Shown piece after piece: positions 32,784 to 38,012 of a stretch of DNA of 63,036 nt. The notes under the pieces are model-generated. The model was given only the letters and a program-made list of their open reading frames with translations, searched no databases and was not told where the DNA came from. This DNA comes from Flavobacteriaceae bacterium (lineage in GTDB: Bacteria > Bacteroidota > Bacteroidia > Flavobacteriales > Flavobacteriaceae), in contig JADHLZ010000006.1 in the NCBI GenBank assembly GCA_016780345.1, positions 1-63,036 of the forward strand, read 5' to 3'. The translations under genes were made by a program, and so were the position numbers. Numbering within the stretch: the first letter of the stretch is position 1; every line of letters starts with the position of its first letter.

Positions 32784-33311
32784 TTAATCAATCAATGAGT
32801 TTTCTTCAATTATTCCTCCACATGCTATTCTTGAGCCAGCAGCTCCTGATGGTTGAGATTTAAAGTCATCAAAACCTTCATGAATTATAATTGATTTACC
32901 TAAAATATTTTTTGAAATATCATCACAATTCAAACACCACAAATCCGTTGTAAACGTAACAGCTCCATTACCCTCATTATCAACTGTAAAATTTCCTATA
33001 TCTCCTCTATGAAATCCAGTTGAATCGCCCCATTTTCCATGCGCTTCTAGTGTCGGATTCCAATGACCACCTGCTGATGAACCATCAGCTGATGAACAAT
33101 CTGATTTTTCATGAATATGGATTGCATGTTCACCAGGGTTTAAACCTTTGATTTGAGCTTTCATCGTTACTTTTGAATCTTTTTCAACAAAAACAATAAA
33201 TCCATTAGTTTCTGATGAGTTTTTAGATTCAAGTTCAACAACAACCATGTTGGGAACTGAACAGCTAAAAATTGTAAAGGATAAAAAAAATAATAATATA
33301 GACTTTGTCAT
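32784..33311 (-). CDS. Cu/Zn superoxide dismutase, lipoprotein
   Basis: A 175-residue protein that removes superoxide in the periplasm. Signal with lipobox SFTIFSC (Cys17). Metal ligands fit: His65 and His67 (HAIHIHEKSDC), bridging His83 (GGHWNP), His91, His101 and Asp104 (zinc side), and His144 (SIIIHEGFDD) for copper. The disulfide pair is probably Cys72 and Cys164 (SRIACGG). It uses copper, so it may profit from the copper-related cassette at 34432-37965. The gene is divergent from the DUF3089 gene with 43 bases between the starts. Confidence 0.94.
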   Translation of the reverse strand: MTKSILLFFLSFTIFSCSVPNMVVVELESKNSSETNGFIVFVEKDSKVTMKAQIKGLNPGEHAIHIHEKSDCSSADGSSAGGHWNPTLEAHGKWGDSTGFHRGDIGNFTVDNEGNGAVTFTTDLWCLNCDDISKNILGKSIIIHEGFDDFKSQPSGAAGSRIACGGIIEENSLID

Positions 33312-33354: not shown

Positions 33355-34413
33355 ATGAAAAAAAAACTAGCATTGTGTTTCTTTTTAACAAGTTTTATTT
33401 CATGTGGATTACTTTCTGAAAACACAATTCCTGTAGTTTACAATAGCGAATCTTTCACAGATTTTAAATTCAGCAAAGCACCTGATTATAAGAATATCTA
33501 TTCATGGGCAGTTCACCCTGATACTAATATTAATGTTTTTGATTGGCTTTCCCAAAAAAAAGAAAATTTACCAGTTGACACTTTTTTTATTTATCCAACT
33601 CTTTTAACTGATAAGAAGGATACTAGATGGAATGCTGATATTTTTAACGATGATACCAGAAAATATATTTTAAATTCTTCAGTTAAATTTCAAGCCTCAG
33701 CTTGGTATTCTACAGGTAATTTATATGTTCCTTATTATAGACAAGCTCATTTAAGAGTTTTTAAAGAACCTTTTTGGAATAACGGAGGAAAAGAGGCATA
33801 TGAAATGGCATACAATGATATAAAAGAAGCATTTGAAACTTATTTAAATGAATTTAATAACGGCAGACCAATAATTATAGCTGGTCATAGTCAAGGGGCT
33901 GGTCACGCTAAAAGATTGTTACAAGATTATTTTGATAACAAACCTTTAAAAAAAAAATTAATTGCAGCTTATTTAATTGGAACTAAAATCACTGATCAAG
34001 ATTTTAAAACTATACCAATAATGATAAATAAATACGAAACAGGAGGATTTGTTACATGGAATACTTATCGCTTAATGTCTGAAAGAAAAACAAATAAAAT
34101 TTCAACTACAATAAACAGAGAATGGATTACAGATGCTTTATGTTCCAATCCAATTACATGGGATTTAAACACTTCAACTCAATATGATGATCATAAAGGT
34201 TTTCTTTATATAAATAATAAATTATTCCCAAGATCTGTTAGAATTGAATCAATGGATAACAAAATACTTGTTAAACTTCCTAAAATGGATTTTTTTAAAA
34301 AGGTTTTGCTTTCCTCAGTTAAAGACTACCATAAGGCTGATGTTAATCTTTTTTGGGAGGATATTAGAATTAACAGTATAGACAGATCTAAAGCTTACTT
34401 AAATGAATTATAA
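33355..34413 (+). CDS. DUF3089 domain-containing alpha/beta hydrolase, lipoprotein
   Basis: A 352-residue protein starting at ATG 33355; the frame is open farther upstream but those residues do not look like a protein start. Signal MKKKLALCFFLTSFISC ends in a lipobox. The DUF3089 family is an alpha/beta hydrolase group; the nucleophile is Ser in IIIAGHSQGAGHAKRLL. The family pattern also includes NVFDWLSQKKENLPVDTFFIYPTLL near the start and ASAWYSTGNLYVPYYRQAH. The reaction is unknown: lipase or esterase-like. It precedes the TonB receptor with an 18-base gap, so it may be the first gene of that cassette. Confidence 0.85.
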   Translation: MKKKLALCFFLTSFISCGLLSENTIPVVYNSESFTDFKFSKAPDYKNIYSWAVHPDTNINVFDWLSQKKENLPVDTFFIYPTLLTDKKDTRWNADIFNDDTRKYILNSSVKFQASAWYSTGNLYVPYYRQAHLRVFKEPFWNNGGKEAYEMAYNDIKEAFETYLNEFNNGRPIIIAGHSQGAGHAKRLLQDYFDNKPLKKKLIAAYLIGTKITDQDFKTIPIMINKYETGGFVTWNTYRLMSERKTNKISTTINREWITDALCSNPITWDLNTSTQYDDHKGFLYINNKLFPRSVRIESMDNKILVKLPKMDFFKKVLLSSVKDYHKADVNLFWEDIRINSIDRSKAYLNEL

Positions 34414-34431
34414 AATCATTATTTTTACATA

Positions 34432-36675
34432 TTGAAAAAAACTGTCTTTTTGTCCTTGTTTTTTTGGTTACTTAGCTATAAATTAAGTTATTCTCAAAAT
34501 TTTATAATAGGAACAATTTACTATGAAGATAGTTTGGGTGAAAAACTTCCTCTTTCTGGAGTTTCTGTATTTTGGGAAAATACTACAATAGGAACTCTAT
34601 CAGATTTGGATGGTAATTATAAAGTTCCATTTTCTAATTCATCAAATAGATTATTATTTAAATATTTAGGTTTTAAGGATCAAATCATTCAATATAGCAA
34701 TCAATCCACTATAAATATTACAATGATTGAAGATGAAAATATTTTGGATGAGGTTATTTTAAATAAAAAACAAAAAACAATTCAAAAGTCATATTTTAAA
34801 ACCCAAAACATAATAAACGTTTCTAGTGAAGAACTTTTAAAAGCAGCTTGTTGTAATATTTCTGAAAGTTTTGAAACTAATCCATCTATTGATGTTAATT
34901 ATTCAAATTCAATTACAGGTACAAAACAGGTAAAAATGCTTGGACTAGAAAGTCCTTATTTACTCATAACAGAAGAGAATATTCCGATGATTAGAGGTGC
35001 TTCACAAGTTTATGGTTTATCGTTTATACCTGGAACATGGGTTGAATCTATGCAAATAACAAAAGGCTCTGGATCTGTTACTAACGGATTTGAAAGTATT
35101 TCAGGTCAAATTAATGTAGAACTAAATAAACCATTTTCAGACTCACCATTTTTTATAAATATTTATTCAAATAACATGGGTCGTAATGAAATTAATTTAC
35201 ACAGTAATAAAATAATAAATGATAAATTGAGTTCCGGATTATACATTCATGCAAACAAAAATGACCATATACTTGATAATAATAACGATGGTTTTCTTGA
35301 TCATCCAATTTCTGAGGCGTTAAATTTGTTCAACAGATGGCAATACATCAATCCATCAAAAGGAACAGTTATATTTCTTGGATACAGGTTTATGAGTGAT
35401 AAAAAAGAAATTGGAGAAAACACTAAGGATAAAGTTTTTATTCGTGAATCCTGGTTAGGGGAAATTAATACAAAAAGATTTGATTCAAATTTTAAAATTG
35501 GATATGTTAATCCCTCAATACCATATCAATCTTTAGGATTTCAAATGGCCTATTCATACCACGATCAAGATTCTTTTTTTGGTAAAAGAAATTATTTGAT
35601 CAATCAAAAAAGTTTTTACTCAAGTATAATGTATAATTCAATAATTGGAAGTACTTTAAATAAAATTAAGTTAGGACTAAACTATTCTTACGATGATTAC
35701 GATGAGCTTTTCAATCGAGTTTCAATTGACATGATTAGTAGTTCTCAAAGGATTGATAACTCTATTGGTGGTTTTTTTGAATATAGTTACGATAGTTTAG
35801 ATGAAATTAGTTTAGTAGCTGGAATTAGATATGATTTTCATAACAATCTTGGAAATTTTTTTACACCAAGACTTCACTTAAGATATCAACCATTTGAAAA
35901 ATCTGTTATAAGACTTTCTGCCGGAACTGGAAGAAAAGCATCTAACGTGATTTCTGAAAATCAAAATATCTTTGCTACTGGAAGAGAAATATTTTTACCA
36001 AAAAATGTTGGAAAATTCTATGGATTAGCACCAGAAAAAGCATTTAATTATGGGGTAAGTTTCAGACAGGGATTTGATATTAATAATAGGCAAGGTGATG
36101 TAACTATTGATTATTATGTGACAGATTTTGATAATCAAGTCGTAGTTGATTGGGAAGTGCAAGGGGAAGTTTCTTTTTATAACTTAAAGGGAAATAGTTA
36201 TGCGAAAAGTTTGCAAGTTGATCTTGAATACGAGTTTAATGATAATTTTTATTTAAAATCTACTTACAAAAACTACAATGTTAAGAAACAGTACAAAACA
36301 GGATTTTTCCAAAGTCCATTGACCCCAAAGAATAGATTTTTTACAAATATTGAAGCCTCAACAAACACAAAGAAAAATGGATCAAAATGGAAATTTGATT
36401 TAACTTACAATTGGATTGGTAAGCAAAGAATACCTAAACATAATTTAAGTTTAGTAAAAGGATTTTCAAATTCTTATTCTCTACTAAATAGTCAAATAAC
36501 CAAAGTTTTTTCTAAAAAATTTGAATTATATTTAGGAGGTGAAAATATCTCTAATTATAAACAAGATAAACCAGTTTTAGGAGGGTACCCGTTTGGAACA
36601 GATTTTGACACCTCCATTGTATATGCTCCATTACACGGGTCGCTTTTTTATATAGGATTAAGATTAAAAAGTTAA
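34432..36675 (+). CDS. TonB-dependent receptor of a predicted metal-acquisition cassette
   Basis: A 747-residue outer-membrane receptor. Start is TTG 34432, with signal MKKTVFLSLFFWLLSYKLSYSQ. Residues about 24-100 are a CarboxypepD_reg-like domain; the plug follows, with the unusual VSSEELLKAACCNISESFE near residue 130-148 (Cys140-Cys141) and TGTKQVKMLGLESPYLLI. Beta-barrel strands fill the rest, ending in the usual aromatic YIGLRLKS. The CC pair near the plug is shared with receptors I know next to heavy-metal-associated proteins. Here two HMA-type genes follow directly. Copper or another soft metal or its complex is the likely cargo; TonB, ExbB and ExbD are not in the window. The substrate is inferred from context only. 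Confidence 0.85.
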   Translation: MKKTVFLSLFFWLLSYKLSYSQNFIIGTIYYEDSLGEKLPLSGVSVFWENTTIGTLSDLDGNYKVPFSNSSNRLLFKYLGFKDQIIQYSNQSTINITMIEDENILDEVILNKKQKTIQKSYFKTQNIINVSSEELLKAACCNISESFETNPSIDVNYSNSITGTKQVKMLGLESPYLLITEENIPMIRGASQVYGLSFIPGTWVESMQITKGSGSVTNGFESISGQINVELNKPFSDSPFFINIYSNNMGRNEINLHSNKIINDKLSSGLYIHANKNDHILDNNNDGFLDHPISEALNLFNRWQYINPSKGTVIFLGYRFMSDKKEIGENTKDKVFIRESWLGEINTKRFDSNFKIGYVNPSIPYQSLGFQMAYSYHDQDSFFGKRNYLINQKSFYSSIMYNSIIGSTLNKIKLGLNYSYDDYDELFNRVSIDMISSSQRIDNSIGGFFEYSYDSLDEISLVAGIRYDFHNNLGNFFTPRLHLRYQPFEKSVIRLSAGTGRKASNVISENQNIFATGREIFLPKNVGKFYGLAPEKAFNYGVSFRQGFDINNRQGDVTIDYYVTDFDNQVVVDWEVQGEVSFYNLKGNSYAKSLQVDLEYEFNDNFYLKSTYKNYNVKKQYKTGFFQSPLTPKNRFFTNIEASTNTKKNGSKWKFDLTYNWIGKQRIPKHNLSLVKGFSNSYSLLNSQITKVFSKKFELYLGGENISNYKQDKPVLGGYPFGTDFDTSIVYAPLHGSLFYIGLRLKS

Positions 36676-36684
36676 CTTTATAAA

Positions 36685-37026
36685 ATGAAACAAATAGTAA
36701 TTTTTACTCTTTTATTTTCTTCAATATGCTATTCACAATCTAATTCTATTTCAGAAAAGGCTTCCTTTAAAGTTTTGGGAGTATGCGAAATGTGTGAAGA
36801 AAGAATTGAAAAAGAAACTATTAAGCTTAAGGGAGTTAAATATGCTGATTGGGATATTTTATCGAATAATATTTCTATAATATACAATTCAAAAAAAATT
36901 GATCTTGATAAGATTCACAGACATATATCTTTATTGGGTCATTCAACAGAAAAGTATAAGGCTCCACAAGAAACTTACAACTCTCTTCCTGATTGTTGTA
37001 GATATGAAACAATCGATCCACATTAA
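36685..37026 (+). CDS. Secreted heavy-metal-associated (HMA-like) domain protein 1
   Basis: A 113-residue periplasmic protein with signal MKQIVIFTLLFSSICYSQ. The domain starts SFKVLGVCEMCEERIEKE; Cys34 and Cys37 form the metal-binding CxxC, in the place of GMTCxxC of copper chaperones. The fold continues KLKGVKYADWDILSNNISIIYN and HRHISLLGHSTEKY, as in HMA/CopZ. After it comes a tail ETYNSLPDCCRYETIDPH with a Cys104-Cys105 pair. Nine bases behind the receptor. It may receive metal from the receptor in the periplasm. The Met of GMTC is replaced, so affinity may differ. Confidence 0.82.
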   Translation: MKQIVIFTLLFSSICYSQSNSISEKASFKVLGVCEMCEERIEKETIKLKGVKYADWDILSNNISIIYNSKKIDLDKIHRHISLLGHSTEKYKAPQETYNSLPDCCRYETIDPH

Positions 37027-37039
37027 ATAAAAAAAATCT

Positions 37040-37444
37040 ATGAAAACTAATACTAAAATATTTCTCGCTGCATCAATAGGATTACTTATTGGTTATTTTA
37101 TACCTAACTTTTTTTCTAACAAAAATTCTAAAATAGTTAATGAAGTAAAGTCAGAAAAAATTGTTGAGTTAATGGGTACTGAAACTTCTTTTGGAGTTAA
37201 AGGAAACTGTAAGATGTGTAAAAAAACTATTGAGACATCAGCACTTAATCTTGATGGAGTTCACAAAGCAGAATGGAATGTTCAATCTAAGCAAATTAAT
37301 CTTGTATATGATGATCAATTAGTTGAACTTATGACAATACATAATGCGATAGCTTCATCTGGTTATGCTACTGATTTAGTAGATTTAAATAAGGAAGCTT
37401 ATGATAATCTACCTCTTTGTTGTAAATATGACCCAGAAAATTAA
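37040..37444 (+). CDS. Membrane-anchored HMA-like domain protein 2
   Basis: A 134-residue protein with an N-terminal membrane segment (FLAASIGLLIGYFIPNFF, about residues 8-25) that looks uncleaved, so it is probably tethered to the inner membrane with its domain outside. The domain FGVKGNCKMCKKTIETSALNLDG has Cys57 and Cys60 as CxxC, then HKAEWNVQSKQINLVYDDQLVE, and the tail YDNLPLCCKYDPEN with Cys127-Cys128, the same LPxCC(K/R)Y motif as the previous gene. The two genes look like an old duplication, one secreted and one tethered. Likely metal relay or sensing. Function is inferred. Confidence 0.82.
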   Translation: MKTNTKIFLAASIGLLIGYFIPNFFSNKNSKIVNEVKSEKIVELMGTETSFGVKGNCKMCKKTIETSALNLDGVHKAEWNVQSKQINLVYDDQLVELMTIHNAIASSGYATDLVDLNKEAYDNLPLCCKYDPEN

Positions 37445-37482
37445 TTTTTTTTATTAAATTTATTTCAATTAAAAAATCTATC

Positions 37483-37965
37483 ATGAAAAAATATTTATTG
37501 TTAATAATTACATTTGTTTTTATCAGTTGTAATAATGAGGTTAAAACTGAAAATTTAAAATCAGATTTTTCTTCATTTTTTAAAAATGGAGATATTATGA
37601 CAAGTGCAACACAAGATCCCCTTGGAAATGTATTTTCATATCCAACAGGTGAAGCTTCAGTCACTAGTCAAGTTAAAGTTTGGGAGCCAGGCTTTAAATC
37701 TCCTTGGCATTACCATCCTTACACTGGAGTTGCATATGTGGTTCAAGGAGAGTTAACAGTGAACTACGATACTGAAACTTCCCTTGATGCTAAGGGAGAT
37801 GAAAAAACAATTATTCTTTCTGAAACATATAAAGCAGGTGATAAAGCATTTTTAGGTGTGGCAAACACATGGCACCTTTCTGAAAATAAGGGTTCTGAAG
37901 ATCTTATTTTTATTGTATCGTGGCTTGGAGAAAAAGATAAACCTATAGCTGTTTTATCTGAGTAA
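37483..37965 (+). CDS. Cupin domain lipoprotein
   Basis: A 160-residue protein with lipoprotein signal MKKYLLLIITFVFISC. The cupin core has WEPGFKSPWHYHPYTGVAYVVQGELTVNY near residue 66-94; the HYHP with later Glu and His (NTWHLSEN) would bind a metal. Cupins of this kind are often dioxygenases or binding proteins, but no activity can be given. It lies 38 bases downstream of the second HMA gene and just before a strong terminator, so it is probably the last gene of the metal cassette. A role in metal or ligand binding is possible. Confidence 0.82.
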   Translation: MKKYLLLIITFVFISCNNEVKTENLKSDFSSFFKNGDIMTSATQDPLGNVFSYPTGEASVTSQVKVWEPGFKSPWHYHPYTGVAYVVQGELTVNYDTETSLDAKGDEKTIILSETYKAGDKAFLGVANTWHLSENKGSEDLIFIVSWLGEKDKPIAVLSE

Positions 37966-37982: not shown

Positions 37983-38012
37983 AAAAAAAAGCTCCCAAAA
38001 GGAGCTTTTTTT
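37983..38012. terminator. Bidirectional Rho-independent terminator
   Basis: A run of A, then AGCTCC at 37990-37995, loop CAAAA, GGAGCT at 38001-38006 and a run of T. Including the A/T flanks the stem is over ten base pairs. It ends the cupin gene from the left and the ALDH7 gene from the right. Confidence 0.85.

Follow-up and report, generated by a model that had tools for sequence, protein, structure and literature searches.

A Bacteroidota family of TonB-dependent receptors with a cysteine pair in the plug and HMA partner proteins with cysteine-pair tails: a candidate copper hand-off route in the cell envelope

A small periplasmic carrier that serves a copper transporter is familiar from the CusF/CusB pair, in which CusF does not have the HMA fold and works for export; in the mercury systems, the membrane protein MerT carries a cysteine pair. 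MerE likewise carries one (PMC5715351), and in the Mer relay the periplasmic HMA protein MerP transfers its soft metal to a membrane partner bearing such a pair (PMC3466566). The passage of copper over the Gram-negative outer membrane and onward is described as poorly known in the reports on CrtA and OprC (PMC12914433; PMC8610252). OprC and NosA are TonB-dependent transporters that bring copper ions across this membrane, and the copper site of OprC, which includes Cys143 of the plug, takes the form CxxxM-HxM (PMC8610252). A receptor of this type with CxxxM-HxM was proposed for copper uptake in a study of Flavobacteriaceae, and the family considered below is not described in the parts of that study drawn on here (PMC11213822). 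We analyzed a stretch of 63,036 nucleotides (the window) from a Flavobacteriaceae bacterium (assembly GCA_016780345.1, contig JADHLZ010000006.1; genome of 1.39 Mb assembled, 78% complete), in which a TonB-dependent receptor with two adjacent cysteines in its plug is followed by two HMA proteins, HMA1 and HMA2, each with a CxxC site and a CC-bearing tail (a combination abbreviated HMA-CC below). The matched cysteine pairs on an import gate and on its carriers suggest a hand-to-hand route into the cell envelope, probably for copper, and the family is widespread in Bacteroidota. We propose that it imports copper across the outer membrane and is served by periplasmic HMA carriers of its own, a reading to which we assign a probability of roughly 0.6; no account of this receptor-HMA pair was found in the open-licence literature.

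The receptor (747 residues, TTG start; 34432-36675, on the forward strand like all genes and sites below unless stated otherwise) comprises a signal peptide, a CarboxypepD_reg-like domain (residues 37-109), a plug (124-225) and a barrel, with matches to the Pfam models CarbopepD_reg_2, Plug and barrel, the latter two above cut-off; its nearest named relatives are 87% (L033) and 78% (L044) identical. Its assignment to the TonB-dependent transporters by plug and barrel agrees with the AlphaFold2 model of a fused homolog (L158; pLDDT 89), whose Foldseek matches are transporters of this class, including BtuB and OprC. Membership in SusC/RagA (TIGR04056) was rejected, the match reaching 70.9 bits against a cut-off of 368.25 and covering residues 38-150 only. 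The only cysteines of the receptor, Cys140 and Cys141 (34849-34854), form the vicinal pair of a KAACCN motif (residues 137-142). An earlier note, made from the DNA letters and their translations, had recognized this pair and placed it between the N-terminal domain and the plug; it actually lies inside the Pfam plug match, and in the L158 model it occupies a short loop flanked by plug helices 228-234 and 239-245. A candidate Ton box, LDEVIL (residues 105-110; 34744-34761), chosen by eye from its position and the consensus LDEV, precedes the pair by about 30 residues.

For the comparative survey, order genomes (Flavobacteriales) and named loci were gathered by receptor sequence with no filter on the cysteine pair or on HMA genes: of 139 order genomes with a receptor match, 94 were retrieved, with one locus each. 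The matches of a profile search over the whole phylum fell into two score tiers; 40 orthologs (530-969 bits) were taken from the 48 upper-tier genomes listed outside the order, and 20 paralogs (269-425 bits) were sampled from the lower-tier matches listed. The plug pair is present at all 94 order loci (that of L166 precedes the predicted start), at 58 of the 59 named loci (the exception, L084, starts past the site at a contig edge) and in 40/40 phylum orthologs as against 0/20 paralogs (Fisher 2e-16). The gap between the tiers (530 versus 425 bits) probably exceeds what two cysteine columns could contribute. The upper-tier receptors are spread over many families of the phylum sample, including many uncultured Flavobacteriales. 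Three loci of family f8 (L096, L102 and L113) encode a second receptor, devoid of the pair, about 5-6 kb from the one that has it.

Set beside the described systems, the receptor shares its fold with OprC and NosA but differs from them in being without CxxxM-HxM, in the vicinal arrangement of its cysteines and in its dedicated HMA partners. It is comparable to CrtA/BfrG of Bordetella, a copper transporter of the same class tied to respiratory oxidases and with a PepSY_TM neighbour, as is also seen at 10 of 172 receptor loci here (counts over these 172 keep related loci unthinned, and one assembly contributes two contigs, L040 and L089); for CrtA, in contrast, no conserved cysteine is reported and the term HMA is absent from the main text (PMC12914433). 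The Mer relay has its parallel in the transfer from a periplasmic HMA protein to a cysteine-pair membrane protein, but operates at the inner membrane, where it imports mercury for detoxification, whereas the partner here is an outer-membrane receptor (PMC3466566). The CusF/CusB pair offers the likeness of a periplasmic carrier serving a transporter, mirrored in an HMA-CC domain fused to a CusB-type adaptor (L115), and the difference that CusF, as noted, serves export from another fold, unlike the HMA-CC carriers proposed here. By profile the closest solved chain is XusA, a Bacteroides TonB-dependent transporter (9gbc), which aligns over the N-terminal domain and plug; a gap and a Gln stand opposite the two cysteines, and according to the entry title its partner is a surface lipoprotein, XusB. 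A CC-plug receptor with HMA proteins would work in a manner analogous to OprC/CrtA, MerP-MerT and CusF-CusB, while failing the OprC motif and the CopZ and MerP cut-offs.

The two HMA genes follow the receptor gene at intervals of 9 and 13 nucleotides. HMA1 (113 residues; 36685-37026) has its CxxC at C34/C37 (36784-36795) and its tail pair at C104/C105 within LPDCCRY (36994-36999); HMA2 (134 residues; 37040-37444) has the corresponding sites at C57/C60 (37208-37219) and at C127/C128 within LPLCCKY (37418-37423), so that both proteins bear the CxxC site and LPxCC(R/K)Y tail earlier ascribed to them. Against the HMA (PF00403) cut-off of 24.8 bits, HMA2 scores 31.6 and HMA1 falls just under with 23.7 (24.8 when scanned with its neighbours); the AlphaFold model of HMA1 finds its best fold match in CopZ with a Cu(I) cluster, consistent with an HMA fold in both. 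Assignment to the CopZ_Bs and MerP equivalogs was rejected, as even the better protein, HMA2, reaches 42.7 versus 91 and 27.8 versus 92.55 bits. HMA1 begins with an ordinary signal peptide, and HMA2 with a hydrophobic, apparently uncleaved N-terminus without lipobox, as in the 11 two-HMA relatives (of 15) whose sequences were inspected. The view that one protein is secreted and the other tethered to the membrane fits both N-termini, as read by eye. Of the 59 named loci, 15 have a second HMA-CC gene.

An unfiltered count of the 183 HMA matches adjacent or fused to CC receptors finds the CxxC followed by a CC in 173; five more keep the tail with a C-rich variant in place of the CxxC (tail pair in 178/183 altogether), four have the CxxC without tail and one has neither. 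The apparent invariance of these positions in alignments based on A1 is partly by choice, since its rows were pre-filtered by CxxC and CC.Y, and profiles A2 and A3 were likewise built from CC-bearing rows; a 100% figure obtained on rows selected by a CC pattern was disregarded. The HMA1 model (pLDDT 88) shows an ordered tail, in which a short helix (95-99) precedes a helical turn at the CC, and the L158 model concurs (tail helices 97-101 and 105-107). The 34 solved HMA sequences matched by profile align by their best stretches to position 97 or earlier of 114; thus, known HMA structures match the core only. As vicinal cysteines are able to form disulfides, these pairs might alternatively gate the plug or report the periplasmic redox state, with any metal being secondary, and thioredoxin-like or DsrE-like genes (named by eye) do flank L105, L169 and L102. 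However, the partner has no thioredoxin fold but an HMA domain whose CxxC resembles that of CopZ, and copper-type genes recur in the neighbourhood (see below), which together make such a redox function very unlikely.

Among the variants of the HMA proteins, we observed a divergent group beside receptors in which a C-rich site ending in CC replaces the CxxC and an LPxCCQ tail is kept (L105:4357-4701, L169:3848-4192, L170:310-657, L028:1101-1472, L030:3728-4099). In another, HMA-like proteins without CxxC adjoin receptors with the plug motif xxACCD (L136:4046-4393, L138:6938-7291, L239:4192-4539); these combinations are perhaps a sub-branch with another ligand.

The association of plug pair and CC-tailed HMA in other genomes, which the earlier note had named beforehand as the check on its proposal, is borne out across the survey (HMA matches are counted on the same strand, and "adjacent" denotes less than 400 nucleotides). 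In the order genomes HMA-CC is adjacent to the receptor gene in 62 and fused to it in 13 (75/94 together), with a tailless HMA-like protein adjacent in one further genome and no HMA match within the stretch seen in the other 18. At the named loci it is adjacent in 54 of 59: four of the others end at a contig edge 178 nucleotides or less from the receptor, and in L052 the receptor open reading frame (ORF) is truncated with the HMA further away. The phylum orthologs have HMA-CC adjacent or fused in 22 of 40 cases, further off in two, an adjacent tailless HMA in one and none in 15; hence a same-strand HMA match occurs at 25/40 ortholog loci versus 0/20 paralog loci (Fisher 8e-7). Together with the distribution of the plug pair, this contrast indicates a trait of one subfamily and not a general property of these receptors. 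In some genomes (for example G008, G011, G034, L186 and L190) unlinked HMA-CC proteins are encoded elsewhere.

The association also takes the form of fusion. The N-terminus of TonB-dependent transporters faces the periplasm, and in 16 of 124 rows of the receptor tree it consists of an HMA-CC domain in one or two copies, with CxxC and CC tail. The remaining rows have HMA-CC upstream (39), downstream (35) or not at all (28), and six are paralogs, which form one clade. The distribution of fusions requires at least three changes on the tree, three being forced by well-supported branches, although these could equal one gain and two losses. The partnership is kept whatever the arrangement, be it upstream, downstream or fused. 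That receptor and HMA genes merely came to lie side by side in one lineage might be read from this variable gene order, but adjacency or fusion over many families, fusions at three or more places of the tree (unless they go back to one gain and two losses) and the absence of HMA matches from all 20 paralog loci refute such a reading, which we regard as extremely improbable; chance is also excluded by the cysteine motifs themselves, which were earlier held to be unusual and instead mark a family spread across Bacteroidota. With the periplasmic acceptor identified by the fused receptors, two purified parts would be enough for a direct test of the exit step in a TonB-dependent metal transporter.

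The contexts of HMA-CC away from the receptor bear on the metal. In L115 two copies are found at the C-terminal end of an HMBD-bearing CusB-type adaptor, in L152 and L153 HMA-CC adjoins such adaptors, and in L177 it comes after an adaptor that itself follows a P-type ATPase; it is further fused to DUF3347 in L175 (by Pfam), with similar proteins elsewhere in L171-L185 (by eye). A CusB/HMBD, P-type ATPase or NMVCxxC AraC signature is present at 13 of 24 non-receptor HMA-CC loci as against 0/20 paralog loci, the 24 being picks from the HMA-CC match list and not the full set (L152, L153 and L154 are from genomes without a receptor match at E 1e-40, and L115 is a second site of G015). Beside the receptors themselves, PepSY_TM proteins (the 10 loci mentioned above), HMA-MauE proteins (18/172) and proteins with the NMVCxxC motif (10/172) recur, each at 0/20 paralog loci, and a DUF326 protein is encoded near the receptor at a single locus, L236. 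PepSY_TM genes follow more than 75% of the crtA copper-importer genes (PMC12914433), and PA3789, encoded beside oprC, has been proposed as a Cu(II) reductase (PMC8610252). The fusion of HMA-CC to, and its position beside, CusB-type efflux adaptors point to copper; this choice of metal agrees with the neighbours and the fusions, an indirect form of support.

An alternative is that the receptor imports another soft metal, namely zinc or a zinc/cobalt chelate, and that the HMA-CC proteins carry zinc. Zn(II) is as well matched to four thiolates as Cu(I) is, both the profile and the fold matches include HMA domains of the zinc ATPase ZiaA, and the zinc transporter ZnuD appears among the structural matches of the receptor. 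The CusB/HMBD-type efflux parts fused to or flanking HMA-CC speak against zinc, as do the DUF326 (L236) and PepSY_TM neighbours, which better suit copper, and the 34 profile-matched solved sequences, 30 of which are named copper proteins versus two zinc proteins and two MerP, a share inflated by the dominance of copper HMAs in the PDB and to that extent of lesser weight for copper. On balance we consider zinc unlikely.

Two of the recurrent neighbours deserve separate mention. Fusions of a CopZ-like HMA with a MauE-type membrane protein lie near the receptor at the 18 loci counted above (L045, L046, L048-L054, L062, L082 and others) and are a possible inner-membrane step in other lineages. Short AraC-type regulators whose first residues, NMVCxRC, resemble an HMA site occur by both receptor and CusB-type loci (L071:3156-3719, L044:5376-5936, L236:3718-4284, L153:6996-7568) and are likely metal-sensing.

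The genus of the window offers a further perspective on copper. A P-type ATPase domain was found in none of its 16 genomes, that of the window included, as against 7/9 other order genomes and 14/14 controls; if completeness is taken as an independent per-gene chance, a universal P-type ATPase would be missed through incompleteness with a probability of about 9e-12. Such an absence from 16/16 genomes is unusual for bacteria. At the same time, subunit I of the haem-copper oxidase (COX1) is encoded in 13/16 genomes, Sco in 16/16 and both HMA proteins in 13/16, with HMA1 and HMA2 being the only HMA domains found in the genome of the window. Oxidase and Sco without a detected P-type ATPase suggest that copper is maybe handled wholly outside the cytoplasm. 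These data also bear on the possibility that HMA-CC proteins act as sponges in the periplasm, binding incoming copper or silver for efflux, with the receptor co-regulated to scavenge or sense, as the presence of HMA-CC in CusB-type and P-type ATPase gene runs could imply. Yet TonB-dependent transporters import, the HMA domain fused onto the receptor fits uptake, and the genus keeps both HMA genes in 13/16 genomes with a P-type ATPase in 0/16 (CusA-type pumps were not searched for in the genome of the window); we therefore judge a role in copper defence to be quite unlikely.

Under the proposed copper importer with HMA carriers, we infer copper, the direction of import, the role of the plug pair and the order of hand-off as follows. 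The receptor would take up copper, free or chelated; remodeling of the plug by TonB would allow the plug pair to present Cu(I) on the periplasmic side; and a CopZ-like HMA, the free HMA1 or, in other organisms, the receptor-fused domain, would accept it by thiolate exchange, with the ordered CC tail and the CxxC both taking part. From HMA1 the ion might in this genus pass to HMA2, anchored in the inner membrane, and so reach the membrane in which Sco and the haem-copper oxidase require copper. A metal relay of receptor and HMA carriers, as the earlier note had envisaged, is thus favored by co-occurrence and by natural fusions with cysteine pairs on both sides, with the relay step itself being predicted. 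More tentatively, and with somewhat more doubt than confidence, we suggest a complete inward thiol relay: the plug pair would dock with the HMA chaperone, which in some cases is covalently part of the transporter, and, in this small-genome, probably marine genus lacking P-type ATPases, free and anchored chaperones would supply cytochrome oxidase with copper that never becomes cytoplasmic.

Several observations weigh against this interpretation. The receptor of the window contains neither C...M nor H.M, and hence no OprC-type site, and COX1 was not found in its own 78%-complete genome. A linked HMA-CC is not obligatory, given the 18 order and 15 phylum loci without an HMA match (some at contig ends) and the adjacent HMA-like proteins without CC tail in L138 and L238; at L247 and L256 a YHS protein adjoins the receptor in place of the HMA. 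No copper-type signature extends beyond a minority of the receptor loci (10 to 18 of 172 for each), the Cus-type and P-type ATPase signatures are very rare next to receptors (1 and 2 of 172), and the AraC-type profile also matches 1/20 paralog loci. Finally, the HMA-CC domain cannot by itself set the direction of transport, as such proteins sit in efflux operons too.

Turning to the remainder of the locus, the ORFs and their order are as first annotated, with the HMA genes followed after 38 nucleotides by a Cupin_2 lipoprotein (160 residues; 37483-37965), the last gene of the run. This protein had been counted as a fourth bearer of the cysteine motifs and as a member of the unit, but its sole cysteine is that of the lipobox, leaving three genes that share them, and a cupin match is present at just 2 of the 15 loci of two-HMA relatives; it is probably not part of the receptor-HMA system. 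A terminator-like hairpin flanked on either side by runs of A and T (37984-38012, no strand assigned; z -4.9) agrees with the terminator noted after it and separates the cupin gene from a convergent aldehyde dehydrogenase-like gene (named by eye); the scan found three such sites in 5.6 kb versus 1.9 expected, and a promoter scan gave 32 matches versus 34.5 expected. Upstream, a DUF3089 lipoprotein (33355-34413), 18 nucleotides 5' of the receptor gene and possibly on the same transcript, recurs in 14/15 two-HMA relatives and in two others of the 59 named loci, and is a lineage-specific neighbour and not a core part. The Cu/Zn superoxide dismutase (Sod_Cu, 32784-33311, reverse strand) pointed to earlier is indeed encoded nearby, but its link is weak: it lies on the strand opposite to the receptor and has a match at 6/15 two-HMA loci. 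Thus, neither cupin (2/15) nor SodC (6/15) was retained as a part of the system.

Another companion is a small Cys-rich protein, in many cases a member of HYC_CC_PP, encoded upstream of the receptor at 119 of 167 evaluable loci as against 1/20 paralog loci, counts that stay the same when HMA matches are excluded. These proteins include a cluster from 58 loci, and of nine tested by profile against HYC_CC_PP (NCBIfam NF047658) three score above cut-off, two just below and four have no match. HYC_CC_PP, for which no match was found in the genome of the window and no description in the open-licence literature, may be a third part of the receptor-HMA system; examples upstream of receptors are L024:965-1366, L046:4605-5093 and L221:3442-3849, and looser Cys-rich proteins take this position in further families.

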